Assembly (NCBI GenBank): GCA_025526915.1
Contig: JAHLKH010000109.1
Location: forward strand, 27,379-91,378
Reading direction: 5' to 3'
DNA: 64,000 nucleotides
Source: Entophlyctis helioformis
Lineage: Eukaryota; Chytridiomycota; Chytridiomycetes; Chytridiales; Chytriomycetaceae
Both the position numbers and the translations under genes were made by a program. The notes under the pieces are model-generated. The model saw only the letters and a program-made list of their open reading frames with translations, made no database searches and was not told where the DNA came from. The first letter of the stretch is position 1, and each line of letters opens with the position of its first letter. This document shows, one piece after another, positions 679-62,917 of the stretch.

Positions 679-923
679 TGTAACTGTCCTCGTCGAGAGC
701 GGCTGGCCGTCTGGTGGCAGAGGGGCAGTGAGTATACAGGCTTACGGCTGGATACAACTTCATTGAGACTCAGGCACAGACCTGGTGGCAGAGGGGCAGT
801 GAGTATACAGGCTTACGGCTGGATACAACTACAACAACAGGGCCAAGCCAAGTCTGGGCGAGGCGCGTCCAGATCAATGCCAGCAGGTCACGTGACCACG
901 GGACTGCGGCGGCATCCGTTACA
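679..923 (-). repeat. LTR3, 5' LTR of a minus-strand LTR element
   Basis: This is a 245-bp repeat with ends TGTAAC...GTTACA. It is nearly identical to the solo copy at 43510-43754; I see one substitution in the 3' half. It contains an internal direct repeat of about 45 bp (GGTGGCAGAGGGGCAGTGAG...). Minus orientation is chosen because CACGTGA then lies near the 5' end and the internal repeat near the 3' end, as in LTR1, and because a gag-like ORF follows on that strand. It sits inside the truncated LTR2 that continues at 924. Confidence 0.85.
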
Positions 924-4994: not shown

Positions 4995-5388
4995 GCCGTT
5001 CACGGTCGAGTATGCCAACCAGGAGTGCCATCGCGTTGCGGAAGCGGTGACCATTACTCTTGGGGTTGGGGACTACGCGCAGCAGCTGCAGTTCTTTGTC
5101 GCGGACATCAGCACCGATGTGATCCTGGGTACGCCATGGTTTGCTGAGGTGGTGATCACCAAGGGCGATATGGCCGACCGCTCATTTGCATTCCACCACA
5201 AGGCCATGGGGCGCGACTTTGTATGGCGTCTGCACCCCTCAGCGGCACCCACACTTGACCCGACACCCGAACCAGTACCCGAACCCGCATCCAACCCGCA
5301 TCCGAACCAGCACCCGAACCAGCACCCGAACCAGCACCCAACCAGTACCCGAACCCGCACCCGAACCAGTACCCGAAACAGCATCTGA
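4840..5388 (+). pseudogene. Retropepsin-like protease region of LTR1 element
   Basis: The frame carries VALLDTGASGMVMS, the DTGA catalytic motif of retroviral-type aspartic proteases, followed by ADISTDVILGTPWF, the flap and ILG motif. It continues into a Pro/Glu/Asn/Gln repeat linker (PEPVPEPAS and PNQHPNQH) at 5260-5390. The polymerase frame enters in a different phase in the same repeat, so one or two single-base indels in the tandem linker disconnect pro from pol in this copy. Confidence 0.75.
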
Positions 5389-8728: not shown

Positions 8729-8913
8729 ATCCTGACAGACCACAAGGCGACTTGCCCCAGTCGTCGCCTTGTGTACTGAAACCCGCCGTCTGTCAGGTAT
8801 TGCCCATGCATATGCCTTTATTACTACGAAGCTATATCAATGAATAACCTTGTGTACTGAAACCCGCCGTCTGTCAGGCCGCCCATTGTCTCGTTGCACA
8901 TCGTCCTGTTGCA
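8671..8913 (+). repeat. LTR1, 3' LTR
   Basis: The LTR runs TGTAACAGTC...CTGTTGCA, preceded by the polypurine tract CGTCAAGGGGGGC. It holds the same internal direct repeat as the inverted copy at 3858-4100. The flank GCCGC (8914-8918) lies within Fanzor copy 1, equivalent to copy 2 sequence around 47,819-47,823. Confidence 0.9.
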
Positions 8914-10402
8914 GCCGCGACATCCTTGCTGATATCTGCGAGAATGCAAGCAAGCAGCTGCTGCAGGCTGTGCATGACTGGCGTATCGCTAAAGAAGCAT
9001 ATGCAAAGCTCAGTGCGGCTGGCAAGATTCTTTATCATGCATTGGTGGGTTTTGCGAGGCTTGGATGCGTGTCTTGGCTGTCCACTGCATGCTGTTGCTG
9101 ATCTTCAATGCTGCCGGCTTGATCCATTACTGGGCCGAGCAGAAGGTGATAGCAAGACTGAATGAGCGGCTCAAGAAGTATCCAGGCTTGAAATGCGCAT
9201 CTTTCAGGCGTCTAAAAACGCCAGGTTCGCTCTGCACGGGTTGACACAGTGTGGCATTGTGTATTCACCACTGATCACGGCATTTGTGTGACAGTCAAGG
9301 GTAAAAAGACAAAGCAGCCGCTCAGAAGGAGCACACGGATCGCGACCCCAGAAGCTGTTGCCGATATTCGCGAAACGGCCATAAAGACGCTCAACGCCCT
9401 GACAAACCCAACAGATGTCAGGCATGCTGATTTCCAAGTGTCAGAATTTGGCGAGTGTTATGACCAAGCAAAGCAGATGCTGCAGTCGATTATCAATCGA
9501 GTACCGGTGCATCTTTGCATTTGCTGGCTCTGTTTGCATGCAATGGCTTGCTGCGATTGCTTATCCTTCCACTCAACAGGCCGTCAAGCCACCAAAACCA
9601 TGCAAGATGCTGCTGCCACCTCGAGCCGCAGATGATAGAGGCACAGATCGCGACAAGATCCTCTACATTGATGTGCTTCAAGACACAAGGACAACTGTGA
9701 GTTGAACTGCAGGCTTGTGATTGCGAGCATCTTGTGCACATTCAAGATGCATGCCTAACATTGCATTCAACCACGGCAGGATCCATATCTGGTCACACCG
9801 GCCATGCAGGCTGAGCGTGATAAGGAGCGAGCTGAGCAAGCTGAGAAGGCCAAGACCAAGAAGTTCATCCAGGAGCACAAGAAGGATGCAAGCAGGCAAG
9901 CCCGCCAGGCTCCATCTGAGGACGAGACACGGGCGTAAGTGGCATATGGCATGGCATGTGCCTTGAGTGTGTGTGCTGACTGGTGCGTTCTTTGACAGAT
10001 ATGAGCGTGGTGAAAGATCGGCGATAGAGCAGATGCTTGAAAAGATCCACCGCATGATGGCATTGCCAGTCATGACGGCTGCTGCTGCCATCCATGGCAA
10101 TGAGCCAAGGCCAGTGGAGAGCACATACGATTGCCCTGAGCAGATCGTCAAAATGGAGGTATGAGTTTGGATTGCCAGGTTGCTCTGCATGTCTGGCTTT
10201 GTGTATGTTGACTTGTGCTACATACAGGAAATGCTCTCTGGAGATCCAATGCTTGCAAAGTATTTTGGACACCAGGCCAAGACGGCACCGGCCACACAGA
10301 CCCGCGGTTCGGTCTCAGAAAGCATCTTCAATGGCGTGTACCGATACACGGCTGACGTGCGGCGTGCATGCATCACTATGATTGGCGCCATCGTTGAAGA
10401 GC
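8914..10402 (+). pseudogene. Fanzor-transposon protein, middle exons (copy 1)
   Basis: The exons match copy 2 in order: RDILADICENASKQLL; a segment reading KKTKQPLRRSTRIATPEAV; GTDRDKILYIDVLQDT; the Lys/Glu-rich helix EHKKDASRQARQAPSEDE; and ERGERSAIEQMLEKIHRMM, separated by short GT-AG introns. A one-base loss near 9,240 breaks the frame between FALHG and the following segment. No known domain is recognised in this part. It links the FEN-like N-terminus (present only in copy 2) to the RuvC part. Confidence 0.65.
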
Positions 10403-10407
10403 TCGTC

Positions 10408-10590
10408 TGTTAGATTATTGTCTGTTGGCTTTTCCAATTCCGTGTCTCGCGACTCTCCCTTCCCCTTGCTGTTCTATTCAATTGCCTGCCACAGACACTG
10501 TCGCCTGACAGCTCCTCTTCCTTTTGTCTGTGCCTCAGCCAAACCCGCAGTTCCCTGTGCCTTCGCCGCACTCGAGCAGGAACTCTGACA
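10408..10590 (+). repeat. LTR5 5' LTR
   Basis: 183 bp, TGTTAG...TCTGACA, identical by eye to 12268-12450; preceded by the target duplication TCGTC. Confidence 0.93.
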
Positions 10591-11049
10591 AGAACAGCCC
10601 GTAGAAACAACTACCTCGCCGCTCGCGGCACCCACCGGCCGTCCGGCCTGTTTGTCGCTTGCGGCACCGACCGGTCGCCCAGCCCCCACGTCCTTTGTGA
10701 CATCCACCTCGTCGCTTGCGGCGCCTACCGCTTCCTCAGTCCCTATACTGCTCTCTTCGTGCTTCTCATCACGTTCAGTGCCCACACTATCTCTTTGTTG
10801 TCTCGCACCCGATCTGCTCAAACATCACGCCCTTCGCCCACAACGCGTCTCCGATCCACTTCCTTGACATCCCGTCTCTGATTGGTCAATTTCTCCGATC
10901 CTCTTCCTTGACATCTTGTCTCCGATTGGTCAATTTCCACCGCGACCACTGCTCAGCCTGACGCGTCTCCAGCCCCCACATCGCACCCTGCACGGCCCAG
11001 CGACCACTGCTCCGCCTGCTGCGTCTCCAGTCCACCTTTACTACATCCT

Positions 11050-11480
11050 CCTCGTCGCTTGCGGCGCCTACTGGTTTGCCAGTCCCTACACTGTTCTCGT
11101 CGTCCTTCTCGGCGCGCTCAGCCTCCACCGGTCTCCCGGCCCCCACGTCCTTTGTGACGTCCTCCTCGTCGCTTGCGGCGCCTACTGGTTCGCCAGTCCC
11201 TACACTGTTCTCGTCGTCCTTCTCGGCGCGCTCAGCCTCCACCGGTCTCCCGGCCCCCACGTCCTTTGTGACGTCCTCCTCGTCGCTTGCGGCGCCTACT
11301 GGTTCGCCAGTCCCTACACTGTTCTCGTCGTCCTTCTCGGCGCGCTCAGCCTCCACCGGTCTCCCGGCCCCCACGTCCTTTGTGACGTCCTCCTCGTCGC
11401 TTGCGGCGCCTACTGGTTTTCCAGTCCCTACACTGTTCTCGTCGTCCTTCTCGGCGCGCTCGGTGCCCACTCCATCTCTT
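11050..11480. repeat. 114-bp tandem repeat array inside LTR5
   Basis: Units beginning GTCGCTTGCGGCGCC start at 11054, 11168, 11282 and 11396, an exact 114-bp period (38 codons), so frames stay open on both strands. On the minus strand each unit would encode an acidic stretch including ERAEKDDENSVGTG and ASDEEDVTKDVGAG. On the plus strand it would encode a hydrophobic one. A more divergent unit is visible upstream at about 10,620-10,760. Whether either strand is translated is unknown. Confidence 0.9.
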
Positions 11481-11614
11481 TGTCGTCTCAGTCCAAACAT
11501 CTCGCCCTTCGTCCGCAACGCGTCTCCGATCCTCTTTCTTGACATCTCGTCTCTGATTGGTCGATTTCTCCGATCCTCTTCTTTGACGTCTTGCCTCTGA
11601 TTGGTCGATTTCTG

Positions 11615-12135
11615 CCGCGTCCATCTCACGTCCCACCACCGCCCTGATCGCATCCTGCACGGCTCAGCGACCACTGCTCGGCCTGCCGCGTCTCCAGTCC
11701 ATCCCACATCCCACCACCGCCCTGATCGCATCCTGCACGGCCCAGCGACCACTGCTCAGCCTGCCGCGTCCATCTCACGTCCCACCACCACCCTGATCGC
11801 ACCCTGCACGGCCCAGCGACCACTGCTCGGCCTGCCGCGTCTCCAGTCCATCTCACATCCCACCACCGCCCTGATCGCATCCTGCACGGCCCAGCAACCA
11901 CTGCTCAGCCTGCCGCGTCCATCTCATGTCCCACCTCTGTCCTGATCGCATCCTGCATGGCCCAGCGACCACTGCTCAGCCTGCCGCGTCCATCCCACAT
12001 CCCACCACCGCCCTGATCGCATCCTGCACGGCTCAGCGACCACTGCTCAGCCTGCCGCGTCTCCAGTCCATCACACGTCCCACCACCGCCCTGATCGCAT
12101 CCTGCACGGCCCAGCGACCACTGCTCAGTCTACTG
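11615..12135. repeat. 72/78-bp tandem repeat array inside LTR5
   Basis: About seven units contain CCACCACCGCCCTGATCGCA and CAGCGACCACTGCTC. The spacing alternates between about 72 and 78 bp, depending on whether the hexamer CTCCAG follows GCCGCGT. The array fills the 3' half of LTR5 and carries no recognisable gene. Confidence 0.85.
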
Positions 12136-12267
12136 TGTCTTCTTCACCGCCCACCCATGCTCAAGGCTTTTGACGTCCTCCGCGGATCATCAGGGGATGA
12201 CGAGGCTTAAAATTTTTCTCTCCTTCTGCCGCCTTGGGTCCTCTTGGCCTCCTCGGCTAGGGGGGGG

Positions 12268-12450
12268 TGTTAGATTATTGTCTGTTGGCTTTTCCAATTC
12301 CGTGTCTCGCGACTCTCCCTTCCCCTTGCTGTTCTATTCAATTGCCTGCCACAGACACTGTCGCCTGACAGCTCCTCTTCCTTTTGTCTGTGCCTCAGCC
12401 AAACCCGCAGTTCCCTGTGCCTTCGCCGCACTCGAGCAGGAACTCTGACA
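12268..12450 (+). repeat. LTR5 3' LTR
   Basis: 183 bp, preceded by a run of seven G (polypurine tract) and followed by the target duplication TCGTC. Confidence 0.93.
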
Positions 12451-12455
12451 TCGTC

Positions 12456-15400
12456 GCACTCGACCCATATGCACCGCTGCCACTCAAGTTCTGCGTCATG
12501 GAGGCCAGGAGGAATGGTGAGATGGAATATGTGTATATTGATCCTGATCACTTCAAGGATGAGAGCACGTGGCTCTACGCCGCTGGATGCGTCCTCAGAT
12601 GGCCCGTTAATGCCCGGCGCATGTACGGCGAGGGCCCGCTCTGCAGCAACACCGACATTGCTCACTATGGCGACTTGGTGAGACTTGAGGCGGGCACGAT
12701 GGTCAAGATCTGCACCTTCACCGACGACACAGCACCAGCAGTAGCAACAGCAGCACCAGCAGCAGTAGCCGCCGCATCCAGCAGCACCGATGCCCAACCA
12801 CCAGCCATCGAGCCACCACTACAACGGGCAGTACCATTGGCAAATGATCTGCTCAAGGTGCTTACAAACAGCACCTCTAGTGGCGAGGGAGCCGTCACGA
12901 TGCTTCTGCGATACCTGGGCTACATTCTCACTGGTCAGGAGTCGGTCATGCCGTGGGCAACAAAGCATGTTGCCCACTCATGGATTGTGACGGTCATGCA
13001 GATGATCATCAACCGCAAATGGACGCAGCAGATGATCCGGGACAGCATGACCAAGATGCGGGCTGGTGTGGCGCGGGCAGCAAAGATGGACGCGACGCAG
13101 GCCAGCTCATTGCTGTCAGCCATTGTGCACATGGACGCAAGCATGATGCATGCCGTTTTGCCTGGCAGGCTTGATGACAGTTTGTGTACAGCTGCTCGGA
13201 ACGACATCTACAAAAATCTGGCACAGGGCATCTGTGGCATGCTTGCTGTGCACTTCATGACCCACCAGTCAATGCTCATTGACTGGGCAATCCACCGACT
13301 GATTCCTGGTTTATCTGCTGACAAGGCAGCGGAATTTGCCAAGGCAATGGATACAGCCACCAGGGACGCCACGTCTGGCACGCCACTGTCGACCAGACAA
13401 GACAGACGCATTGTCGAGATCCCACAAGCACTGCACAGGCTCACGGCGGTCGTGCGCAACAAGTCGCTGTCAGAGGCGGGCAAGTTCAAGCAGTTGTGTG
13501 ATCTCGCAGGCTCATCCCTCAAGTTGTGTCCGCAGCCTGCAGGCCGCAATCCGTTTGTCCTCATCACTGAGACCACCCTCTTTTGGGCGGTGATGAGGAC
13601 AAAGGATGAGCGCATCCGTGGCAATCAGGATCCTGCTTTGCAGGCATTGAGACTACAGCTTCTGGCTGCACTCGGTTGGTCGCACTGCCTGTATATGCCA
13701 TGTGTACACAATTTGATGCTGACACTGCACTTTTCTCCAAGGCTATGAAGATGCTGAGTCAGCTCTTGAGTTGCCCAATGAGGATATCAGGAAAGCATTC
13801 AGCGCAAGTCGTGAGGTTTGCATCTTTGACATCCTTCTCCCAGGTCTCTGCCCCAAGAAAGGTCGCTTCCAGACACCTTCAGAAGCCAAAGATGAGATGG
13901 ACACGGTTACCAAGGCCACAGCCAAGGGACGCAAGAGGCTGATGAGCAGGGTCTCGGATGGCAAGGAGCGCGAGAAGCATATCAAGGCTGCGATTGATGC
14001 TGTGCGTCCAGCAAGACCAGCCAAGGCGATCCTACTTGGCAGCATCATGACGGATGGATACAGCATCTACCAGCTGGCTCTGGACTGCCGCACAAACCGT
14101 CCAGAGTCACCTCGCAGTATGTGGCGTGCTTGAATGCGATGGTGCACACATGGATTCTGACTGCCGCCTCGATCTGCAGATCCCAACGCGGCGTCTTCAG
14201 GCGAGCAGCTGTGGCTTGTTGACGAGGCTGATGGCGAGCCCGATTACATTAATGGCAAATGTGAGTTGCTGTACCAATCCAGACGCGCACTTGTTGACCA
14301 CACCGACTGACATGCCATCCACAGCCGCCAATCCAGCCAACCCGTCAGCCACCAAGCCATACACGCCCAATCCTGTAAGCCACTTGCATGCCAACCTCGC
14401 ACTTTGGTGCACATGCATTGCACATCCTCACTCATGCCATGGCATGACAGGCAAGCGCAACTTTTACGCTCACAGCGACTGCCCAACATCGTCAACGCCA
14501 ACAATCTGTTCACTGACCAAGGCTACCAGACTGTTCGCATTGTCAGCTTTGATTGGGGCCAGCGGTACCTGTATGGCGCGTCCAGTATCTTGGTTGATCT
14601 CAGAGACTTTTTGTATAAGCTCGAGTCCAACTACGTGCTCTCCTCTGGCATGGCACATGCTGAGGGCATCTTTCAGCGGTGGTATGCATGCAATGACTCT
14701 GCCACGCGCACTCTTGACCAGATCAACTCACAGTGCCTGCCTCTTGTGCCAGGTTTGCTGATCGATATGCCAAGGCGTCCGACATCCAGGCGGCCATTGC
14801 ATTCAAGACAGCAAAGCATGCTGATCCAAACGCCAAGCAGGCGAGAGAGCCTTTTGGGATCTGCGCTGCCATGCGTACTGCACGCCATTCCTGAATGCAC
14901 GGGTACGTTTTCTCTGTTTCTGGATGCCCATTGCCATGGCCGCCATGCTGCTTGATTGCCTGCTGATTGCACTGGATGGCATGGCATGGCATGGCATTCC
15001 ACAGAAGGTCAAGGCCAAGCGGTTCACCATGCGCAGCACCGCACGTCTGATCGCGGAAACGCTCTTGAGGGCATCATGAAGCTGGCAGGATCGACCACTG
15101 GAAGCGCGCATCTGCTGCATCTCAAGGCCGCTGTGACAAGCCAACAGAGAAGGACATTCCCGTTGTGTGGGCATTTGGCATCGACTTTACTGGCAAGGTG
15201 GCAGGCATGCTGTGTTTGAGAGGTTTCTCATCAGGCATCTGCGGTCGTCTGGATATGCCTATGTGCGTCTGATGCCGCGTTGTCCATCCATCCATCCATC
15301 TGTGCACCAACTGACACACGATCATGCACACACACGCACAGATCTACCGCTGCAACGAGAACCTGACCAGCCAGATGTGCCCGCAGTGCAAGCAGCGGAT

Positions 15401-15836
15401 CCCATACGAGAACCGCACCAACCTGCGACGCTACGAGTGCATACCATGCGAGACTGTCTACCACCGAGACGTGCTTGGAGCCACCAACATCGGGATGGTC
15501 GCACTGTGGCATCTGCTTTTTGGACACCGGCCGCTCTACTTGACACACACCAAAGCCGACAGCAATCCAGCCACGTCAGAGTACCTTGCAGACATCAAGG
15601 CAATGCATCTATTCATCCAGGATTGTGCACGAAATGCTCCACCTGTTGTCCCACAGCCTCAAACGCGGAAACACTTCAAGTCGCATGTGGCCTCATGGGA
15701 CCAGATCAGCCTGCCGTCCTGTGGCGCTCAAGACACGGTCCATCCGTCGTCCAGCAGCGACCAGTACGCAGACAGCCTGCCCTCAAGTCACTTGACCTGC
15801 ATCCCACACAGTGACTTGTTTGACTACCAACTATGA
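12456..15836 (+). pseudogene. Fanzor (TnpB-like) RuvC nuclease, copy 1
   Basis: A long exon (12456 to about 13,675) encodes PLKFCVMEARRNGEMEYVY, an MLLRYLGYIL region and GKFKQLCDLAGSSLKLCPQP. Exons after 13,743 give IMTDGYSIYQLAL (a TDG strand motif typical of Fanzor/TnpB), then YQTVRIVSFDWGQRYLYG (RuvC-I Asp, about 14,555), VVWAFGIDFTG, CNENLTSQMCPQC (RuvC-II Glu next to a zinc ribbon, about 15,350), and YECIPCETVYHRDVLGATNI (second zinc-ribbon CxxC and RuvC-III Asp, about 15,435-15,500). It stops at 15834. Introns lie at about 13,676-13,741, 14,120-14,180, 14,258-14,322, 14,371-14,449, 14,905-15,005 and 15,263-15,341. Frameshifts relative to copy 2 lie near 14,465, 14,845 and 15,197, so this copy cannot make an intact protein. 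Confidence 0.8.
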
Positions 15837-16039
15837 ATCGGGGGACCTCCCGATCGACCTAACGGGTCACTTTTTCTAACGATAAAGGTAAGACCCTTGT
15901 TGGATGTGCCTCGCCCGCCTGTCGTCGCATGCTCGTTGCTGACTCGAACCTTCCATCGTGTGATACGCGGGCATCTATTCGACGCCTCTTGCGACGAATC
16001 CAATTCCAAAATCCTTGGTAATTGTATGAATATCGGGCC
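15837..16039 (+). ncRNA. Conserved 3'-terminal segment of the Fanzor transposon; candidate guide-RNA scaffold
   Basis: This ~200-bp non-coding segment follows the stop codon and is closely conserved in copy 2 (42198-41998) and copy 3 (about 62513-62295). It starts with a small palindrome TCGGGGGACCTCCCGA, holds GACCTAACGGGTCAC and AACCTTCCATCGTGTGAT, and ends TTGGTAATTGTATGAATATCGGG. Sequence diverges immediately after this point in all three copies, so it is the element's right end. In TnpB and Fanzor systems the guide RNA comes from this position; assigning that role here is inference. Confidence 0.5.
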
Positions 16040-41103: not shown

Positions 41104-41963
41104 ATGCCGCCGTCCACCAGCTTCAGAGTCGCATGCATTCTATGCTGTGCATTGGCATTCGCAATGTGCATCTACAACATTGTCACCGTGGCCTATGTGC
41201 GACCGTCGCTCATGGACCTCGGCTTCTTTCTGTGGAACTTATTCGCGAGCGCCTTCATCGTCATGGGTTCATTCGCCATCTGGTCCAACCTCGTGCTTGG
41301 AGTGACCATCTTTGCATGGTTCTTTGCGCTGCACACGGCGGTCCAGGTTGCGTACTGTGCGTACATTGAAGTGTCGCGGACAAGGAGCGTCCATGCCGTA
41401 TCAGTGATGTTTGCGATCCTGTCGGTGGGTCCGTGTGCTTGTGCCGGTGCTCACGATCGATGCGGTGGATGTGCTGACGCATGGGTATGGGACCAAAGAT
41501 TTACTTGACTGTGACGCTGTTCCTGCTGGCTGGCATGCTGCGCGATGAGCGAGATGCCCAGCGCTTGAACGTGCACAGTCATCCCCGCCGTGCGCACAAC
41601 CATCGCCACCACCACATCCCTGGCCCAGATCCGGCAAGCTCGCAGGACGATCCGCAGTGCTGCCGCAGTGGCTCAGCGCATCGCTCTGTGGCAGGGGCTG
41701 GGACCGATGATGACTTGGAGCTGGTGTATGTCAGTATGGGCGACCGAGGCACCGCGCAGTCGCCGTTCCCGCCACCCTACACGGGTGCTGCAGACGTCAG
41801 CGACGATCGCGCAACGACGACTGGCGCTGCCTCAGCACCAGCGGCACCAAGCCCGCCGGCCCCTGCCGTGCCAGCCAATCTTCCGCACTCTCGCCCGGTG
41901 TCCCTGCCTCGTCGCGGCAACACTATTGCACCCGTGGCATCGTCATTGGATGTAAAACAGTAA
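41104..41963 (+). CDS. Four-helix membrane protein with PPxY tail (left paralogue)
   Basis: Exons 41104-41424 and 41499-41963 give 261 residues; an in-frame ATG at 41017 would add 29. Four hydrophobic helices are visible: VACILCCALAFAMCIYNIV, GFFLWNLFASAFIVMGSFAI, LVLGVTIFAWFFALHTAVQV, and VSVMFAILS joined across the intron to IYLTVTLFLLAG. The cytoplasmic tail is His- and Pro-rich with FPPPYTG (PPxY, a WW-domain/Nedd4-Rsp5 ligand). The overall plan matches the gene at 49987-51261 on the other side of Fanzor copy 2, so the two are probably paralogues. Function unknown. Confidence 0.7.
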
Positions 41964-41993
41964 AGGTTCCCCTTCGCATTGCGAACCATATAC
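41964..41993 (+). repeat. Left member of a ~30-bp direct repeat flanking Fanzor copy 2
   Basis: AGGTTCCCCTTCGCATTGCG followed by AACCATATAC begins right after the stop codon of the PPxY gene. A near-identical copy (a few mismatches and one extra base) lies at 49954-49984 in the same orientation, on the other side of the transposon. Confidence 0.7.
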
Positions 41994-41997
41994 ATAT

Positions 41998-42198
41998 CCC
42001 GATATTCATACAATTACCAAGGATTTTGGTGTTAAATTCGTCGCAAGAGGCGTCGAAAAGAAGCCCGCGTATCACACGATGGAAGGTTCGAGTCAGCAAC
42101 GAGCATGCGACGACAGGCGGGCGATGCACATCCAACAAAGTGCTCACCTTTATCGTTAGAAAAAGTGACCCGTTAGGTCGATCGGGAGGTCCCCCGAT
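41998..42198 (-). ncRNA. Conserved 3'-terminal segment, copy 2; candidate guide-RNA scaffold
   Basis: Same segment as 15837-16039, with about a dozen differences by eye over ~200 bp. It contains the palindrome ATCGGGAGGTCCCCCGAT (plus-strand view), and the last shared bases are CCCGATATTC. Flanking sequence differs from the other copies beyond 41998. Confidence 0.5.
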
Positions 42199-44640
42199 TC
42201 AAAGTTGGTAGTCAAACAAGTCACTGTGTGGGATGCAGGTCAAGTGACTTGAGGGCAGGCTGTCTGCGTGCTGGTCGCAGCTGGACGACGGATGGACCGT
42301 GTCTTGAACGCTGCTGTACAGCACGTCTTGAACGCTGCTGGTCGACAGGCTGATCTGGTCCCATGAGGCCACATGCGACTTGAAGTGTTTCCGCGTTTGA
42401 GGCTGTGGGACAACAGACGGAGCATCTCGTGCACGCAGCTTGATGGCAGTATGCATTCTTGCGATGCGTTTGAGGTGCTCTGGCGTGGCTGGATTGCTGT
42501 CGGCTTTGGTGTGTGTCAAGTAGAGCGGCCGGTGTCCAAAAAGCAGATGCCACAGCGCGACCATCCCGATGTTTGTGGCACCAAGCACATCGCGGTGGTA
42601 GACAGTCTTGCATGGTATGCACTCGTAGCGTCGCAGGTTGGTGCGGTTCTTGTATGGGATCCTCTGCTTGCACTGCGGGCACATCTGGCTGGTCAGGTTC
42701 TCGTTGCAGCGGTAGATCTGTGCGTGTGTGTGCATGATCGTGTGTCAGTTGGTGCACAGATGGATGGATGGATGGACAGCGTGGCATCAGACGCACATAG
42801 GCATATCCAGACGACCGCAGATGCCTGATGAGAAACCTCTCAAACACAGCATGCCGGCCACCTTGGCCTGTAAAGTCAATGCCAAATGCCCACACAACGG
42901 GAATGTTGTCCTCTGTCGACTTTGTTCGGTCGACAGGGAGGCCTTGAGATGCAGCAGATGCGCGCTTTCCAGTGGTCGATCCTGCCAGCTTCATGATGCC
43001 CTCAAGAGCGTTTCCGCGAATAGACGTGCTGTTGCTGCGCATGGTGAACCGCTTGGCCTTGACCTTCTGTGGAATGCCATGCCATGCCATGCCGCCCAGT
43101 GCGATCAGCAGGCAATCAAGCAGCATGGCGGCCATGCCAATGGGCATCCAGAAACAGAGAAAACGTACCCGTGCATTCAGGAATGGCGTGCAGTACGCAT
43201 GGCAGCGCAGATCCCAAAAGGCTCTCTCGCCAGGCTTGACGTTTGGATCGGCATGCTTTGCGGTCTTGAATGCAATGGCCGCCTGGATGTCGGCTGCCTT
43301 GGCATATCGATTGTTGAGCCTGGCACAGGAGGCAGGCACTGTGAGTTGATCTGGTCAAGAGTGCGTGTGGCAGAGTCATTGCATGCATACCACCGCTGAA
43401 AGATGCCCTCAGCATGTGCCATGCCAGAGGAGAGCACGTAGTTGGCCTCGAGCGTATATGAAAAGTCTCTGAGATCGACCAAGATGCTGGACGCGCCAAA
43501 CAGGTACCGTGTAACTGTCCTCGTCGAGAGCGGCTGGCCGTCTGGTGGCAGAGGGGCAGTGAGTATACAGGCTTACGGCTGGATACAACTTCATTGAGAC
43601 TCAGGCACAGACCTGGTGGCAGAGGGGCAGTGAGTATACAGGCTTACGGCTGGATACAACTACAACAACAGGGCCAAGCCAAGTCCGGGCGAGGCGCGTC
43701 CAGATCAATGCCAGCAGGTCACGTGACCACGGGACTGCGGCGGCATCCGTTACATACCGCTTGCCCCAGTCAAAGCTGACAACACGAACAGTCTGGTAGC
43801 CTTGGTCAGTGAACAGATTGTTGGCGTTGACAATGTTGGGCAGTCGCTGAGAAGCGTAAAAGTTGTGCTTGCCCTGTCATGCCATGACATGAGTGAGGAA
43901 TGTGCAACGCATGTGCACCAATGCGCAAGGTTGGCATGCAAGTGACTTACAGGATTGGGCGTGTATGGCTTGGCGGCTGATGGGTCGGCTGGATCGGCGG
44001 CTGTGGATGGCATGTCAGTCGGTGTGGACAACAAGTGTGCGTCTGGATTGGCACAGCAACTCACATTCGCCATCCAAGCCATCATCCAAGCAATTATTCA
44101 CGCCACCAAGGCCACCAAGACCTCCATCATCAAAAATACTGTGCTGCTCGTCTGAAGACGCCGCGTTGGGATCTGTAGAGCAAGGCGGCAGTCAGAACCA
44201 ATGTGTGCACCACAGCATTCAAGCATGCCACATACTGCGAGGCGACTCTGGACGGTTTGTGCGGCCATTGAGAGCCAGCTGGTAGATGCTGTATCCATCC
44301 GTCATGATGCTGCCCAGTCTGATTGTCTTGATTGGCCTCGCTGGACACGCGGCATCAATCGCAGCCTTGATATGCTCCTCGCGCTCCTTGCCAACCAGAC
44401 CCTGCTCGTCAGCCTCTCGCGTCGCCTTGGCTGTGGCATCGGCTGTGGCCTTGGCAACCGCGTCCATTTGCGCTTTGGCCTCCGCAGGAGTCTGGAAGCG
44501 TCGCTCGCTCAAACAGAGTCCAGGAAGGAGGATGTCGAGAACACAAACCTCACGGCTTGCACTAAACGCCTTCTCAATCGTGTCATTTGGCGACTCGAGT
44601 GTCAAGTCTTCATCTTTGTAGTCTACGATAAAAGTGCAGT
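42199..44640 (-). pseudogene. Fanzor (TnpB-like) RuvC nuclease exons, copy 2 (split by a solo LTR)
   Basis: Minus-strand exons: REVCVLDILLPGL, GSIMTDGYSIYQLAL (about 44,282-44,310), EPDYINGK-like linker exons, then YQTVRVVSFDWGKR (RuvC-I Asp, about 43,770), where LTR3 cuts the frame. After the LTR: SILVDLRDFSYTLEANYVLS, RYAKAADIQAAIAFKTAKHA, KRFTMRSNS, VVWAFGIDFTGQGGRHAVF. The final exon (about 42,199-42,710) has YRCNENLTSQMCPQCK, NLRRYECIPCKTVYHRDVLG and ATNIG: RuvC-II Glu, CxxC...CxxC zinc ribbon and RuvC-III Asp. The order is that of Fanzor1 proteins. Apart from the LTR this half is better preserved than copy 1. Confidence 0.82.
43510..43754 (-). repeat. Solo LTR3 inserted in the RuvC-I exon, with TACCG target duplication
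   Basis: The repeat is 245 bp, TGTAAC...GTTACA, matching 679-923 at all but about one position. The 5-bp duplication TACCG flanks it (43505-43509 and 43755-43759). The empty site is preserved in copy 1 (CAGCGGTACCTGTATGG, about 14,560). A solo LTR implies recombination between two LTRs of a former full element. Confidence 0.95.
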
Positions 44641-44669
44641 GTCAGCATCATATCATGCAGACATGGCAT

Positions 44670-46778
44670 TTACAGGCAGTGCGACCTACTGAGTGCAGCA
44701 AGGAGCTGCTCTCTCAATGCTTGCAAGACAGCATTGTCCTTGGTGGGTACGCGATCCTTCTTTGCCCCCATCACAGCCCAAAAGAGGGTGGTTTCTGTGA
44801 TGAGGACAAAGGGATCGCGGCTCGCCGGCTGCGGGCACAGCTTGATAGCTGTGCCTGCAAGATCTCGCAGTTGCTTGAACTTTCCTGCCGGGGACAATGA
44901 CGCGTTGCACTCAACCGCCATGAGCTTGTGCAATGCTTGCGGTAGCTCAACGTCGTCCTGGCCCTCTGTGGCTTGCGTTGTGCCAGGCGTACCGTCCTTG
45001 GTGGTAGCCTTGTCCTTCCTGCGCCGTTGCCTCTTGGGTTTGGCGCTGTTGGTGGCCGATGAAGAGCTTGATGCAGGCCGCTTGCAGCCTGCTGTGGGAG
45101 GGGCGGCATCCAGAGTGGCTTGTGGTGTGGCGTCCTTGGTGGCAGCAAGCTTGGCGGCCTTGGCGTCCTTGGCAGCAGCAGCCTTGGCGGCCTTGGCAGC
45201 CTTGGCGTCCTCGGCGTCCTTTGCAGCCTTTGCAGCCTTGGCAACATCGGCAGCCTTGGACATGATCTCGCGCCATTTCTTGACATCCTCGGCAGACGAG
45301 CCAGGAACCAGGCGGTGGATCGCCGCGTCCACCAGCATCGACTGGTTCGAGATAAAATGCGTAGAGAGGGTGCCGCAGATATCCCTGGCCAGATTGCTGT
45401 AAATGTTCTTTGTGGCATCAGCGCATAAGCTGTTGTCAAGAATGCCAGGCAAAACGCCATCCAAGGCATCTGCCTCCATCTGCACCGTGTCATCCTGCAT
45501 CTCAGACGCCTGGATCATGGCTGCCTGCTGCGTTGCGGCCGCCGTGTCTGCATCCATTGCAAACATGCGCAGCTTGGCCGCATCCTCCTGCATCTGCGCC
45601 ATGCTGTCCTGCACCATCCCCTTTGTCCAAGTGCGATGAATGATCATCTGCATGGTCGTAACAAGCCATGAGTGCACAACATGCTTGTGCGCTCGTGGCT
45701 TGACCATCTGGCCACCTGCCAGAATGTATGCAAGGTATTGCAGAAGCATCGTGACAGCTCCCTCGCCGCCAGAGACGCTGCTGGTGAGCGCCGCGAGCAG
45801 ATCATTTGCTGTTGGGACGGCTGGTCGCTGGACAGCTTGTGGTGGAGCATCGGTGCCGCTGGATGCTGCTGCTGGATTGTGCACATCATGCTCGTCATGG
45901 GTGTCCAAGTCGTCAGGCTGCACAGGCAGCTCAGGCACATTGTGCAAGGAGATCTTGAGTGACACGCCCTGCTCATCATGCTCGCCGTGGTCATCGTGGT
46001 CGTCATGGTCGTCGTGGTTGTTGTGGCCATGATCGCCGTGGTCATCAGGCTGTGTGGCCTTCTTGGCTGCCTTGAACTCGCAGATCTTGAGCACTGCGCC
46101 GCTCTCGAGGGTCACCAAGTCGCCATACCGATGCAGCTTGCTGTTGCTGCTGCGTGGGCCATCGCCATACATCTGCCACGCGGTGATGGGTTGTCTGAGG
46201 ACGCACCCATTGGCATAGAGTCCCATGATCTCATCCTTGAGGTCATCAGGATCAATATAGACATATTCCATCTCACCATTCCTCCTGGCCTCCATGACGC
46301 AGTATTGAAGTGGCAGCGGTGCGTCCGGGTTGAGCATGACCAACTCCTCGATCATCGCGGCGATCAGAATGAGACCCGCGCGCCATATGCTTGCCGTAAA
46401 CCGATACACGGCATTGAAAATGTCCTCGACGACCGTACCGTGCGTCTGCATTGCCGGCGGCGTCTTGACTTGGCATCCAAACGCCTTCATAAAGATGGGG
46501 TCGGCAGAGAGCATTTCCTGCACATCACACAAGTCAACACACACAAAACCAGACGCGCAGATCAACATGCCAATCCAGAACCATACCGCGAGATTGACAA
46601 TCTGCTCAGGACGATCGTATGTGCTCTCCACCGGCCTTGGCTCATCGCCATGGATGGCAGCGGCACCCGTCATGACTGGCAATGCAATCAGGCGATAGAT
46701 TGCTTCCAGTAGCTGCCGTATTGCTGATCTCTCACCACGCTCGTATCTGTCAAAGAACGCACTGGTCAGCATGCACAT
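44670..46778 (-). pseudogene. Fanzor-transposon protein, long central exon (copy 2)
   Basis: A 702-codon open frame reads through one short intron. From the N-terminus: YERGERSAIRQLLEAIYRLI, AGLILIAAMIEELVMLNPDA, LQYCVMEARRNGEMEYVYID, a His/Asp-rich tract, MLLQYLAYILAGGQMV, an Ala/Lys-repeat linker (KAAKAAKDAEDAKAAK), a strongly basic segment KPKRQRRRKDK resembling a nuclear localisation signal, and GKFKQLRDLAGTAIKLCPQP with DPFVLITETTLFWAVMG. The corresponding copy 1 exon at 12,456-13,675 aligns along its length but lacks the His/Asp tract and most of the Lys/Ala linker. No known domain was recognised apart from its position upstream of the RuvC core. Confidence 0.7.
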
Positions 46779-46789
46779 TCAAGGCACCG

Positions 46790-48640
46790 ACATGCCATAT
46801 GCCACTTACGCCCGTGTCTCATCCTCAGATTGAGCCTGGCGGGCTTGCTTGCTCGCATCCTTCTTGTGCTCCTGGATGGTCTTGTCCGTCACGGCCTTCT
46901 CTGCACGCTCTTCTCGCTCCTTCTTGAATACAGCCTGTCTGGCCAGTGTGACGAGGTATGGCTCCTGCCGTGTTTGGATGCAATCTTAGGCGTGCATTTT
47001 GAATGTGCGCAAGATGCTCATGATCACAAGCCTGCAGTTCAACTCACGGTTGTCTTTGTGTCTTGAAGCACATCAATGTAGAGGATCTTGTCGCGATCTG
47101 TGCCATCAGCTGCGGCTGGAGATGGCAGCAGCATCTTTGGCGCTTTCGGTGGCTTGCCGACCTGTCAAGTCAAAGCATGAGCAGGTGCATCAAGCCGCCA
47201 CATGCAAACAGAGCATAGAAATGCAAAGACGCACTGGAGCCCTGTCAATGATCAGTGTCAGTGTGTCTGTGGCTTGTTGATACTGCTCAGAAAGTGCCAG
47301 CGGCTTGAAGTCGTCCGGGCTGTGTTTCTTTTGGCATTCCAAGAGATTCAGCGTATCTACGGCCTGTTTGCGAATGGCAGCGACAGCCTTTCGAGTCGCG
47401 ATCCGTGTGCTCTTTCTGCGGTGCTGTTTAGCCTTGCGGTTGCCTGCCAGAAGAATGCCGTGATTGATTGTGAATACACAAGGTCGCACTGTGCCAAACA
47501 AATGCAGAGCGAACCTGGCTTCCTTGAACGCCTGAATGGTGCACATGCGATGCCTGGATACCTCTTGAGCCGTTCCTGCAGTCTCAGGATCACTGTCTGC
47601 TCGCCCAGTGATGGATCAAGTCAGCCATGCTCAAAATCAGCAACAGCATGCAGTGGACAGTCAAGACACGCATCCAAGCCACCCAAAACTCACAAAGGCG
47701 TGTAACAGGCTCTGCTCAGCTGGGCTGAGTATCTCATATCCTTTTGTAGCGAGATCCTTCTCGTGCACAGCCTGGAGCAGCTGCTTGCTTGCATTCTCGC
47801 AGATATCAGCAAGAATGTCGCGGCCGTTGATGCTGTCATTGGCAAGCTGATCTGCTGTGCACCGGAGGATGCAGCCAAGCACGACACGGCAGCCATTGAG
47901 CATGACAAAAACGTCGTCCAGTCGCCTTGTGTTGACAATGTGGTTGGCGAGCTCTGTGACTGCGTCCCGTGTGAGGTGGAAAACCGCACGACTGGCATTG
48001 CCCTTCAGCTGCTGTGCCGTGTGGCTCAAGCAGCAGTCGCTGTAGGCCGTGCATGCAGAGGCAGATCTGCCAGTGGCATCCATCAGAGTCAGTGCCACAA
48101 GAATCCTGCAGAGATCGCAGCCATGCCTACCTGTTTTGGGGCAAGATGGCCCTGTTGGCAGTCATGCTGTTGCCATTGGATGGTGCATGCATTCATGTCA
48201 ATGCCATGCTGTCCAAGTGCATCCAAACCAAGACTTACTGCCGCATCTGTCCTGCAAACACACTGGCATAATGGTCACATGCTGGGGCTGTGATCTCTCC
48301 AATATCGGCTCCAGTTTCGTCACGGTTGAGAAACACCGCGAAGGCATTGCTGAATGACTGAGCAAGAGGCTTGCCGCCGATCTTGTACATCTGCCACATG
48401 AACGCGATCTTGATGACATGCACAAACATCCTGGCAATGTCGGGGTCTTGGAGGCATTCACAGACATCCGCAAGGAGATACCCAGCTGCTCTGCCTCCAA
48501 ACGAATGCATGCCATGATGCACTTTGCAGCCGTGACGATCCTTTCAAGTCCACATCGCAGGATCACGAGTAAGTCAAGGTCGCAGTGCATGGCATCCAAA
48601 AATGCAAAGCAGGCAAGCCAACCTACCAATCCCAACACAA
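46790..48640 (-). pseudogene. Fanzor-transposon protein, exons between FEN-like and central regions (copy 2)
   Basis: Minus-strand exons with GT-AG introns encode HHGMHSFGGRAAGYLLADV and FSNAFAVFLNRDETGAD (about 48,550-48,240). Next come LTLMDATGRSASACTAYSD through RDILADICENASKQLLQAVH (about 48,095-47,700), FKEARFALHLFGTVRPCVF (about 47,540-47,225), GKPPKAPKMLLPSP with DRDKILYIDVLQDTKTT, and EREERAEKAVTDKTIQEHKK. Frames can be joined without internal stops, which suggests one continuous coding unit from the FEN-like start to the RuvC end. Copy 1 matches from RDILADICEN onward. Confidence 0.6.
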
Positions 48641-49598
48641 TGGAAATAGTCGTTGCTCGCCATTGCGGCCACCAACTGGCAGACAAAGGGAATGTCTGGC
48701 AAGCCTAAGGCGGCTGCAATAGAGGCAATCCCATGGTGATTGTAGGATCGCATTCTATTGATCTGCCCACTGCGCATTTGCAGCAGCAGGACAGGGCAAT
48801 AGCCGGCACAGTGGAACACCAGATCGGAGTCGCCACTGATGACAATGACTGGCACATTGCTGTCAAGAAGGCGCGTGAGCCATGGATTCTAGAAGCATGC
48901 AGAAGACCAACCAACCTTGCTTCGCGGGAATGGCGTGCAATGCAAACATCCGCCTCATTCTCGCAAAGGCACACAGACGACCCGCCTTTGAAGTATCCCA
49001 GAAGACTGCCCAGGCCCTCGAGATGGCCGCCTTACGCTCGCGTGTGAGGGGGTATGCCTTCTGCAGGTGCTGCATCTCGTTTCTGGAATGGCATTGAGTC
49101 AGTACAGCATGCAGATCAACAGCAGCAAGTGGCACACCTCGAGAGCTTGCCGCTCTTCTGGCCGGCATTTCGCTTGGCTGCCTCGGCCATGAGAAAGGAT
49201 GCCGCCTCCAATGCTGCCCAGGCCCGCCCGGCATAAGCAGCCTTGATGGCGGTGTCGAGCTGCGACCCATCCACATGCAGCTGGACTGTGTGCAGCTGTC
49301 CAATGGCCGCGGCGAGGCTGCTGATGAGCGGCTCAAGTAGCAGCCTCCAGTCGTTGTCAGACTGGGGCGGCTTTGCGGCTGCTGCTCTCATAATGTCAAT
49401 GAAGAGCAGGCAAACGATGTCGACATGGATGATGCAGCTGATGGGCTCGGAGTCGGCTGCTGCTGCTGCTGCTGCTGCTGCTGCATCTGGCTGCTGCTGG
49501 GCAATGGCCTGAATGGCAGTGGGCAGAGGGGTGTCTGCTTTGTATGTCTTGACACCACCTCTCTTGTCGATGGTGGGGAGACTGTCGTCGACTCCCAT
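48628..49598 (-). pseudogene. FEN1/XPG-like 5' nuclease domain at the start of the Fanzor transposon
   Basis: Start taken at MGVDDSLPTI (49598), since FEN-family proteins begin MGV/MGI at their functional N-terminus; an upstream ATG at 49643 adds 15 residues. Motifs in family order: CIIHVDIVCLLF (first metal-binding Asp), VQLHVDGSQLDTAIKAAY then RAWAALEAA (FDG and R-rich helix), ENEADVCIA (the EAEA motif, about 48,950), VIVISGDSDLVFHCAG (SGDSDL, about 48,830), and LVAAMASNDYFHCVGIG (G-NDY-GIG region, about 48,650). A frame change near 49,015 between TRERKAAISRA and LGSLLGYF disables this copy. A poly-Ala insert follows residue 30. The fusion to a Fanzor downstream is inferred from exon continuity. 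Confidence 0.75.
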
Positions 49599-49639
49599 GT
49601 GTGTTTGTTGCGTGTTGTTTTGTGTCGGTCGTTTTACAG

Positions 49640-49986
49640 GCAAGCTGCTCTCGTAATATCAGACTGATGGTTGGCAGCAACACATGGAGCACTGGTCTGT
49701 GTGTGTGTGGAATGGCATGCTCCTCAGAGAGAGAGAGAGAGAGCGTTGCACATGACTATGCATTCGCCCCTCTTTATTCATGGAGGACACACACGCACGG
49801 CCCAGCGAGACAGCAGCGCTGCTGCCTGCACCACTGCCGTTGCTGTGCTCGCATCGCGCAGTGTCAGCACTGTGCAAGGGCTCTCTAGATCGACCAATCA
49901 CAGCGATTCCACCAAGATGACCAATCACAGCGATTCCACCAGGAGTTACTGATAGGTTCCCCTACGGCATTGCAAACCATATACCG
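49640..49986. promoter_or_regulatory. Transposon 5' region / intergenic stretch with CCAAT-like repeats
   Basis: Between the FEN-like start and the next gene there are two copies of GACCAATCACAGCGATTCCA (about 49,889 and 49,914; ATTGG boxes on the transposon strand), a GA run at 49,726-49,743 and a GT run near 49,699. The CCAAT-type repeats are plausible promoter elements of the transposon or of the downstream gene; direction is undecided. Confidence 0.4.
49954..49984 (+). repeat. Right member of the ~30-bp direct repeat flanking Fanzor copy 2
   Basis: AGGTTCCCCTACGGCATTGC followed by AAACCATATAC, two bases before the ATG of the right-hand PPxY gene. It pairs with 41964-41993. Confidence 0.7.
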
Positions 49987-58051: not shown

Positions 58052-59609
58052 GCCTTGCGGGCAAGAAAGCGTGCCCGTGCGTCCATCACGCGCTCGTCCG
58101 ACACCTTTGTCTGTGCCCGCTCGAGCGCCGCCTGCCGCTCGCGCTCGGCCTCCTCTTGCGCCTTGCGTGCGGCTTCTGCCCGCTGCTGCTCGACATACTG
58201 GATGCTGCGTGCCGCCTGTGCACGAGCACGCTCTTGCCTCGCCTTGTGCTCTGCCGCGCGCGCTGCCGCCTCTTCCAATGCGCGCTTCTCCTCCAGCGCG
58301 CGTGCCTCCTGCTCGCGCTCCTGCCGCTCCAGCTCTTGCTGCCGCTGTGCCTTGACCGTCAGATTGAGACCGCCGGCCAGCAGCTGCCGCTTGTCCACAA
58401 TCTCCTGCGAGTCATTGACCACCACTTGGCCAGACGCCAGAATGCTGCGAACGCGAGCCTGTTCTTCCTGCTCCAGCCGACGCTCTGCGTCAATGAGCGC
58501 CATGTTTCTTGAGGAGGACACAGAGGCAGCCGATCCGGTCGGCTGGGCTGTTGCTGGCGCCAGCGTCCGAGTGGCGCCTGTTTCCTGCTCGCGCCGGTCG
58601 AGCATGGTGCGATAGAACCCAGTCATGTCGCGATCCTTTTCCTCGCGCGCTGTTCATCCGTCCATCCGTCCATCCGCCTAATAGTCAGCACAAGAGCCAC
58701 CAAAGTCTGCAAGTCAACCATATCGCACCTTCTCGCTTGCGTTCCTCCTCTTCCTGGATCTTGAGCTCCTCTTGCCGCTTCAGGTACGCCTCGGTGACAA
58801 ACTTTTCCTTGTCGCCAAACATCTCGCCCTCCTCGTCGCGCTCTTTCTGGATCTTGCGCTCCTCTGCGCGCTCCAGCTCGACATCACGCTTCGCTTTGGC
58901 CTTGAACAGCCCCTCGACGTATCTCGACTGCATGCCACGTCTCGCTGTCAGTGCCCGCCAGCCAGCCACAATCGCAGCGCACACCTGAGCAACGCACCTT
59001 TTTGCGCACAGTGCCGTCCTCGGCACCGTCGCGCTGCTTGCGTTTCTCAATCTCGGACTCTTTTAGCTGGTCGTAGATGGTGTCGTAGTCGAACACGCTG
59101 GGATCCTGCTCTAGCGCCAGCCGCTGGGCTTCTTCGACTGCCCGGCTCTGCTGCTGCTGGACGGCCCGCAGCTGCATGTTCACGCGACGCTGCTCCTCTT
59201 TGGCAGCCTGCTGCTGCCGCTCCTTCTCCAGCTGCTGTTCTCGCTGCTGCCGCTGCAACCGGCGCCTGGCAATATCGTCGTCGTCGTCGTCGTCATCGTC
59301 ATCGTCGTCTCCTCCTCCAATGCTGGAAATGGCCTCTGCCTTGCCTGTGCTGGCTGTCTGCAGCAGATGGACCTTGCCGTCCTCGACGTCGTCGTCGTCG
59401 TCAGCATGGCTGCCAGCAAGCGGATTGGCAGCGCGCTTCTTGACCAGCGAGAACGAAAGCTTTCCTGCCGTGCCTATGCCTGTGCCTGTTCCACTTGCTG
59501 CGCCTGTGTCTCTAGAGGCCCCCTGTAGACGGAAGCCTCCGCCGGTTGTTGTGGCAGCCTTGTTGCTGCTGCTGCTGCCGCCCAAGCCAAATTTGAGTGT
59601 TGGCTTCAT
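58009..59609 (-). CDS. NSRP1: NSRP1/CCDC55-like nuclear speckle splicing regulatory protein
   Basis: Exon 1 (59609-58998) starts MKPTLKFGLGG and includes an Asp run, a long charged coiled coil and DPSVFDYDTIYDQLKESEIE. Exon 2 (58927 to about 58,735) has SRYVEGLFKAKAKRDVELER, ERKIQKERDEEGEMFGDKEK and FVTEAYLKRQEELKIQEEEE. After an intron, exon 3 has EKDRDMTGFYRTMLDRREQE and a Glu/Arg/Ala-rich coiled coil ending in poly-Gln. The YDxxYD, KYxxxLL-type and GFYRxxL motifs are the DUF2040 core of NSRP1, a splicing-associated nuclear speckle protein. Confidence 0.88.
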
Positions 59610-59809
59610 TGGATGAGTTTGACGTTAATCGAGACAATCGCTGGCTGCTGCAACGTCCTTCATACCATCTCCATGTCCTCTGCAGGTCAACCCTTTTGAG
59701 ACGAGCGCCTCATTCATCAAGTACTTGGCAATCGTGCATTCAGATACACCAGAAGAAACCCTTGAGCTCGGCGTCTGCATCTGGCCGTGACAGACAGGCT
59801 GCATCTTGC
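59610..59809. promoter_or_regulatory. Divergent promoter region NSRP1 / F-box-ankyrin gene
   Basis: About 200 bp lie between the NSRP1 ATG (minus) and the first in-frame ATG of the ankyrin gene (plus). No motif stands out. Confidence 0.45.
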
Positions 59810-62294: not shown

Positions 62295-62733
62295 GGCCCG
62301 ACATTCAAACAATTACCAAGCATTTTGGAATTAAATTCGACCCAAGAAGCGACGAACGCAAGCCCGCACATCACACAATGGAAGGTTCGAGTCAGCAAAG
62401 AACATGCGACGACAGGCAGGCGAGGCACATCCACATGCATGAGCGGCTTACCTTTCTCGTAAGAAAAAGTGACCCGTTAGGTCGATCGGGAGGTGCCCCG
62501 ATTCAAAGTGTTGGTAGTCAAACAAGTCACATGGAGTGACGTGCTGTGTCCGTGGAGGACACTGCTGCGATGCTGTTGACAGGCTGACTGGCTGGCGTGT
62601 GGGTCAAGTAGAGTGGCCGTTGTCCAAAGAGCAGATGCTCCAGTGCGACCATTCCGATGTTGGTGGCTCCAAGCACGTCTCGGTGGTAGACAGTCTTGCA
62701 TGGTATGCACTCGTAGCGTCGCAGGTTGGTGCG
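62295..62733 (-). mobile_element. Fanzor transposon, copy 3 (3' fragment)
   Basis: Starts inside the final Fanzor exon (TNLRRYECIPCKTVYHRDVL, then GATNIGMVALEHLLFGQRPL) and runs to the conserved 3' end (last shared bases GGCCCGACATTC on the plus strand). It is cut at 62733/62734 by the LTR4 element, exactly between codons for NLR-side and upstream zinc-ribbon residues. The coding tail is shorter than in copies 1 and 2. Confidence 0.85.
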
Positions 62734-62917
62734 TGTAGCACTGGGCCTCCAGGCAGACTTGCCGGCTGGTTGCAGGGGCAGTGAGTATGCACGCGAGGAA
62801 GGGCGGGCAGACGACTGCAAGAACGGGGGCAACCAGAGCGGGGGACGCGGCCGGGCGATGTCTGTCCGGTCACGTGGGTCACGTGGATCACGTGACCGCG
62901 ACCGAGCATCCGTTACA
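62734..62917 (-). repeat. LTR4, 3' LTR of a minus-strand chromovirus
   Basis: On the minus strand it begins TGTAACGGATGCTCGG with several CACGTGA motifs and ends GTGCTACA (184 bp). It is preceded on that strand by a polypurine tract GCTGGGGGGAG. It shares GGGGCAGTGAGTAT with LTR3, so the two families are related. The flank GTGCG is Fanzor sequence. Confidence 0.85.

Follow-up and report, generated by a model that had tools for sequence, protein, structure and literature searches.

Coupling of a 5'-nuclease-like domain to a Fanzor-like RuvC nuclease in a high-copy transposon family of the chytrid Entophlyctis helioformis

Does a transposon of the chytrid fungus Entophlyctis helioformis join a flap-type 5' nuclease to a Fanzor-like RuvC nuclease? 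The question is raised by a 64,000-nucleotide stretch of its genome (C109:27379-91378, contig JAHLKH010000109.1 of assembly GCA_025526915.1; hereafter the window), in which an original prediction had placed FEN-family motifs and then Fanzor motifs on one strand of a single transposon. The minus strand from 49598 to 42199 does carry FEN-like motifs in order (VDIVCLLF, HVDGSQ, ENEADVCIA, ISGDSDL and SNDY), followed 5 kb downstream by motifs of the RuvC side (FDWG, VVWAFGIDFTG, NENLTSQMCPQC and YHRDVLGATNI). Divergent copies show this order as well, which places it beyond chance. The coupling of the FEN-like and Fanzor-like halves is real at the level of the family.

Both halves are abundant in the 29.57-Mb genome (482 contigs). 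Exon-level searches yielded at least 178 matches to the FEN part, at least 197 to the middle and at least 312 to the RuvC part (matches, not loci), and the zinc ribbon PF07282 was found at least 150 times above cut-off (150 scored of 205 candidates). FEN places (about one or two per locus, among the matches listed) were grouped into 70 clusters. In 43 of the 70, the same strand carried a RuvC or zinc-ribbon match 3 to 10 kb downstream (median, 6.0 kb), compared to 0/70 upstream on the same strand and 0/70 on the other strand, all among the matches listed. The reverse count considered the 20 loci surrounding the best 20 zinc-ribbon matches (L-numbers denote loci of other copies in the same genome). 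A FEN part was detected upstream in 8 of the 12 loci whose upstream sequence reached 7 kb or more (L009, L010 [in part], L017, L019, L020, L022, L023 and L024) and in none of the 8 with less than 7 kb. Furthermore, the colinear FEN-middle-RuvC order was present even where the FEN parts shared only 35 to 42% identity with L029. The predicted coupling was thus recovered across the family, with sharp element ends, and the two halves co-occur in copies elsewhere in the genome.

The back half is best called a Fanzor-like RuvC nuclease. In the window copy, it consists of an interrupted RuvC-I exon containing FDWG (43391..43873, minus strand; gene model and copy comparison) and a segment that runs up to the stop codon (42199..43319, minus strand) and holds RuvC-II/III, the glutamate of NENLTSQMC, the zinc ribbon and the last aspartate (YHRD). 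The window zinc ribbon matched PF07282 above cut-off (E = 1.2e-9), and this family was present in all five members of an alignment of copies 81 to 86% identical to the first. The same alignment keeps the aspartate of D-W-G, the glutamate in NENLTSQMC, the C4 ribbon and the aspartate in YHRD. Two NCBIfam TnpB models also matched all five members (E up to 1, best 1.1e-7), all far below the curated cut-offs.

Bao and Jurka described the Fanzor motif as D-X(125,275)-[TS]-[TS]-X-X-C4-X(5,50)-RD (PMC3627910; statements on this and the other cited papers refer to the sections covered). The distance from D(WG) to TS was within this range in 10 of the 12 modelled copies (154 to 231 residues, some models with retained introns). 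It was 290 residues in the window copy because of an insertion described below, and the L019 model is garbled at this site. Yoon et al. defined Fanzors by D-P-G together with a glutamate that precedes the ribbon by six residues, and reported a separate clade with the same alternative glutamate and D-Phi-G (PMC10711439). The glutamate was found at this position, six residues before the first CxxC, in 12 aligned copies (E-NLTSQM-CPQC). As D-W-G replaces the published D-P-G, the label "Fanzor" carries a caveat.

A protein search with the RuvC query returned 16 matches, comprising 10 named E. helioformis proteins and six metagenome proteins. The latter were 22 to 29% identical; four covered 84 to 99% of the query, and all four that cover the RuvC-I site have D-L-G. 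The modelled fold of one of these relatives (P0024, not the window sequence; RuvC part block pLDDT, about 67 to 93) matched the SpuFz Fanzor best (E = 1e-8), with AsCas12f, a further Fanzor and TnpB next in rank. The predicted Fanzor identity therefore stands as regards the ribbon, the glutamate and the SpuFz-like fold of a relative, but not as regards D-P-G. No homologue of the full-length protein reached an E value of 0.001 among 7,990 scored candidates, a set in which low-complexity words probably took up much of the space, or of 10 in a second search with 1,060 candidates. In viral contigs, 17 and 42 pattern matches were obtained, none of which was confirmed.

The family is a variant of Fanzor-type transposons, itself a known kind. 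It resembles Fanzor1 elements, such as SpuFz of Spizellomyces punctatus (PMC10432273) and the MuDR-like ROr-4, PBl-3 and MCi-4 (PMC3627910), in its early-diverging fungal host, in a RuvC with a C4 ribbon and alternative glutamate, and in being an inverted-end transposon with many copies and short derivatives. In contrast to Fanzor1, its modelled protein has about 2,000 amino acids (aa), a 5'-nuclease-like N-terminal half and D-W-G in place of D-P-G. The element measures about 7 to 8 kb, whereas SpuFz measures about 2.1 kb, and its guide RNA is a candidate only. Both RuvC signatures match those of the TnpB clade with the alternative glutamate and D-Phi-G; however, the gene reported here is eukaryotic, intron bearing and joined to another nuclease-like domain (PMC10711439).

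The ends of the element are well defined. With up to 2 mismatches, the 3' tip AATTGTATGAATATCGGGCC is found at 145 places in the genome; the 5' tip CCCGGTTCTCATACCATTACC is found at 86. The backwards control gave 0 matches in each case, and the tips pair as an imperfect inverted repeat of ~21 bp. Complete copies are 7.2 to 8.0 kb long, and a 984-bp derivative (L015) is also present. The main window copy (41998..49944, minus strand) extends from the 3' tip at 41998 to the outermost subterminal repeat at 49944 and, in a comparison of the 5' flanks of seven copies, was found to lack the 5' terminal ~21 bp that other copies have. The same comparison placed two subterminal direct repeats of ~27 bp near its 5' end (49892..49944, minus strand); other copies examined have 2 to 6. 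In the seven copies with both tips, exact shared flanks measured 7, 6, 10, 11, 0, 0 and 0 bp. As 42 mismatched pairings reached a maximum of 7 bp (mean, 1.7 bp), just two copies, with exact target duplications of 10 and 11 bp, exceed the control. A similar sequence of ~28 to 30 bp (TATATGGTTYGCAATGC..GGGGAACC) adjoins both ends of the window copy, at ~49955-49985 and ~41965-41995, and was absent from six other 5' flanks and the other 3' flanks compared. L012, L031 and the second window copy had suggested a bias toward sense-orientation insertion upstream of host genes, but open reading frame (ORF) lengths did not support it. At L012, an ATG follows the element's 3' tip after about 12 nt, and the frame that it opens starts MKMWNFSAGPGVLPKPV and resembles phosphoserine aminotransferase.

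It is quite conceivable, at somewhat under even odds, that the back half is a passenger nuclease and that mobility is provided in trans by a transposase of the host or of another source, a proposal made earlier for Fanzor1 elements whose ends are MuDR-like. Transposase-free MuDR-like Fanzor elements with 9-bp duplications have been described (PMC3627910), and the existence of the 984-bp derivative agrees with this possibility. On the other hand, an intron-blind genome search for the MULE domain PF10551 gave 0 matches, other transposase families not having been searched for. The window protein had no Pfam transposase match.

The conserved 3' noncoding end of the window copy (41998..42198, minus strand) comprises a donor-like AAG/GTGAG, a branch-like GCTGAC, an AG-free stretch and the terminal inverted repeat. 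Among the 28 3' ends found, 26 were aligned (L016 and L027 were excluded), and about 200 nt are conserved across them, with AAGGTRAG in 22/26 and GCTGAC in 26/26. No AG occurred for about 143 nt in 25 of the 26 (the remaining one has 1), where 5.8 per copy (range, 4.9 to 6.7) would be expected, the copies being related to each other. A second class of tip extends for ~50 nt more and, in the copies examined, is rich in pyrimidines and free of AG. The first AG of the flank lay no more than 9 nt beyond the tip in 12/14 class-1 and 12/13 class-2 copies (24/27 together), compared to 0.38 and 0.42 at later offsets of these flanks (P = 4e-4 and 2e-4); in this test, the class-2 tip was set by eye, copies had to hold GCTGAC, and L027 was dropped.

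From its sequence, the 3' end resembles the downstream half of an intron that is completed by an AG of the target. Known introners that borrow a splice site at their target offer a parallel, in that the 3' splice site of an element can be supplied by the insertion site (PMC9860276). In contrast to introners, only the last ~150 to 200 nt of this coding, 7- to 8-kb element look intron-like. The same region (41998..42198) is a candidate guide-RNA region. The 3'-end fold of one copy had a z score of -2.24, with 5/200 shuffles equally good, and no Rfam match was obtained in 41900-42400 at E values up to 1. Both the depletion of AG within the element and its proximity in the flanks lend weight to the possibility that this end is purely a module for splicing to the AG of the target and is unrelated to guide RNA, which we regard as a credible alternative but not the favored one. 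However, guide and splice functions could coexist.

The front half is encoded in the window by four FEN-like 5'-nuclease exons (49598-49138, 49082-48916, 48859-48627 and 48540-48239; 48239..49598 overall, minus strand; gene models). In an alignment of five divergent copies, the window copy excluded, D7, D57, D146, D167, D169 and D227 were invariant and E144 was present in 4/5. These acidic residues belong to VD, HVDG, EAD, D-S/T-D and DY, and we take them to correspond to the catalytic residues of FEN1. The Foldseek search with the fold model of this half (L019:1872-2711, two in-frame introns included) returned XRN, EXO1, FEN1 or T5 5'-nuclease chains at all of ranks 1 to 36 (best E = 0.027). 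Pfam family XPG_I_2, which includes noncanonical Asteroid-like proteins, was matched at an E value of 0.004 in the whole window protein and 2e-4 in the N-terminal part alone (21.3 bits versus a cut-off of 24.2), and an XPG profile was matched at E values up to 1 in 3/5 alignment members, the profile cut-off not being reached. When two XPG-type fragments of the host served as a profile, DSD, DY and GIG aligned in register, at a nonsignificant E value of 0.079. Neither phmmer searches against solved structures, with either half or with profiles of other copies, nor a PHROGs search with the FEN part gave anything useful.

The ordered acidic residues and the weak fold match make it very probable that the front half is a domain of the 5'-nuclease superfamily, and by extension it may have flap activity. 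The original label "FEN1/XPG" was too precise, with the Pfam score below cut-off and the best folds, XRN1 and EXO1, at an E value of 0.027 or worse. In profile searches of the kind that the prediction had proposed, PF07282 was above its cut-off, but XPG_I_2 and the TnpB models were below theirs. The half shares the order of acidic residues and the first 36 fold ranks with FEN1, EXO1, XPG and XRN 5' nucleases but differs from them in its subthreshold Pfam score, a long N-terminal Ala/Gln tract and the lack of any close relative in the searches performed. The top two fold matches are human XRN1 chains and the sole Pfam hint is XPG_I_2, as would suit a PIN/XRN-type ribonuclease that matures guide RNA or transcript instead of a flap DNA nuclease. 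We consider this unlikely, as EXO1, T5 FEN and FEN1 chains rank close behind in that fold list and the EADVCIA and GIG..AAK stretches resemble FEN/EXO1 (their register is not significant).

Ratios of nonsynonymous to synonymous substitution rates (dN/dS), calculated by NG86 on model alignments for 12 pairs per region, suggest that both halves are constrained, as every finite value was below 1 in either half. In FEN exon 3, dN/dS was 0.16 to 0.27 between subfamilies (dS was finite in 5 pairs and saturated in 4); pairs within the subfamily of the window copy gave 0.10 and 0.15, and L024-L022 gave 0.32. The corresponding values for FEN exon 1 were 0.24 to 0.59, 0.10 to 0.11 and 0.71, and those for FEN exon 4 spanned 0.06 to 0.83. 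RuvC-I yielded 0.28 to 0.68, and RuvC-II/III with the ribbon 0.06 to 0.58. In the latter region, dS was just 0.08 to 0.22, whereas FEN exon-1 dS for the same pairs was mostly 0.8 to 2.4. The 3' module has therefore been homogenized among elements with divergent 5' halves. Bao and Jurka reported a comparable homogenized 3' part in the MCi-2 elements of Mucor, which likewise combine variable 5' parts with a nearly identical, Fanzor-bearing 3' part (PMC3627910). MCi-2 differs in lacking recognizable inverted ends, and a nuclease N terminus is not reported in the sections covered.

Between the two halves lies a middle region (44236..48105, minus strand; gene model) with a large exon (46517-44690). 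No Pfam match was obtained for it, and its final part aligns with the segment preceding RuvC-I in the metagenome relatives. The gene models of 12 copies span both halves via GT-AG introns, and the L029 model reads from one half into the other free of stops, over about 2,000 aa. As splice sites were freely chosen, these models are permissive, and several hold doubtful joins.

The prediction that the exons join without a stop into a protein of ~1,900 residues agrees with the L029 model but not with the window copy. Compared to other copies, the latter has lost the reading frame at two points of the FEN-like part, within the second and fourth exons, and these frameshifts are masked by two forced joins (intron 49035-48986 and an acceptor at 48522); a forced single frame of 1,973 aa was rejected on these grounds. 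In addition, a 245-bp repeat with ends TGTAAC...GTTACA is inserted just after D-W-G (43510..43754, strand not assigned; copy comparison), flanked on both sides by CGGTA (43755-43759 and 43505-43509). Other copies read FDWG.RYLYGASS directly. Pieces of the repeat also occur at window positions 815-922 and in L011, L013, L021 and L023. The window copy thus looks like a dead, decayed family member, and the long single gene is a modelled property of the family rather than of this copy. Full-length queries found no database protein of about 1,070 to 3,450 aa, E. helioformis included, short E. helioformis gene calls of 168 to 332 aa exist (in a search that admitted about 156 to 497 aa) and the middle has no Pfam domain, but the models crossing both halves, permissive as they are, make it rather improbable that the element instead holds two adjacent genes, a 5' nuclease and a Fanzor-like nuclease whose REC/WED part is the middle region.

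Overall, we moderately favor the explanation that a high-copy DNA transposon codes for a protein approximately 2,000 residues long, with an N-terminal FEN/XPG/XRN-type 5' nuclease and a C-terminal Fanzor-like RuvC, in which an RNA-guided cut would be combined with flap processing. Its basis is the colinear pairing across subfamilies, the conserved catalytic residues, dN/dS below 1 and the element ends. The RuvC half would be directed by RNA transcribed from the conserved 3' end and would cut a DNA site such as the empty donor site, where repair would restore the element. The 5'-nuclease half would trim flaps or resect ends at the RuvC cut or during transposition.

Several observations weigh against this explanation. 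Among the matches listed, 27 of the 70 FEN clusters lacked a RuvC partner, and no FEN part was seen in 4 of the 12 zinc-ribbon loci (L011, L012, L013 and L015). The FEN assignment is weak by sequence: the L019 copy was without any Pfam family, the L019 front-half model is of low confidence (mean pLDDT, 57; pTM, 0.55), and it gave no Foldseek match at an E value of 0.001 or better. In 11 of the 12 modelled copies, D-W-G stands where the fingerprint of Yoon et al. has D-P-G. Some FEN comparisons reached a dN/dS of 0.83. Nearly all RNA stems tested in the 3' end are invariant, with two covarying pairs (one from RNAalifold and one from a hand-made stem set), and three of the seven complete copies have no matching duplication, while two more have 6 to 7 bp, within the control range. 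A more ambitious version, in which the two-nuclease protein is the element's own mobility machine without a classical transposase, is a long shot; there, the 3'-end RNA would aim the RuvC, the FEN-like half would process ends, AG-supplying sites would be chosen or survived, and the tip would act as a splice module toward host transcripts.

The window contains two further copies. A second, diverged copy with its 3' end present (8892..16039, plus strand) has a ~2-kb insertion at about 10407-12447. Its 5' part was probably separated from it by a gypsy-like ORF (5156-8728), and FEN matches for this copy lie upstream of the window at C109:19445-20785. A third copy is a 3'-end fragment with the longer class-2 tip (62297..62745, minus strand). 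A long ORF at 59597-62005 (plus strand) has repeated GH.DVV.WLHE motifs, ankyrin-like by eye.

The literature search, with most subscription papers and preprints and one paper containing both terms (PMC12719977) outside its scope, found, among the records listed, no report of a Fanzor paired with FEN1, a flap endonuclease, XPG or a PIN domain; in the Fanzor papers that were word-searched, "fused" referred solely to tags and "FEN" occurred solely in an author's name. That Academ transposons carry an XPG nuclease was not confirmed by the literature search and is not used here. The family described here bears on why Fanzors persist in transposons. With both halves apparently under selection, the repair step after RNA-guided cutting would become testable, and, if true, the pairing would be a natural precedent for a guided cutter joined to a flap nuclease. 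An AG-poor 3' end that uses the AG of its target would, in addition, tie such elements to intron creation.

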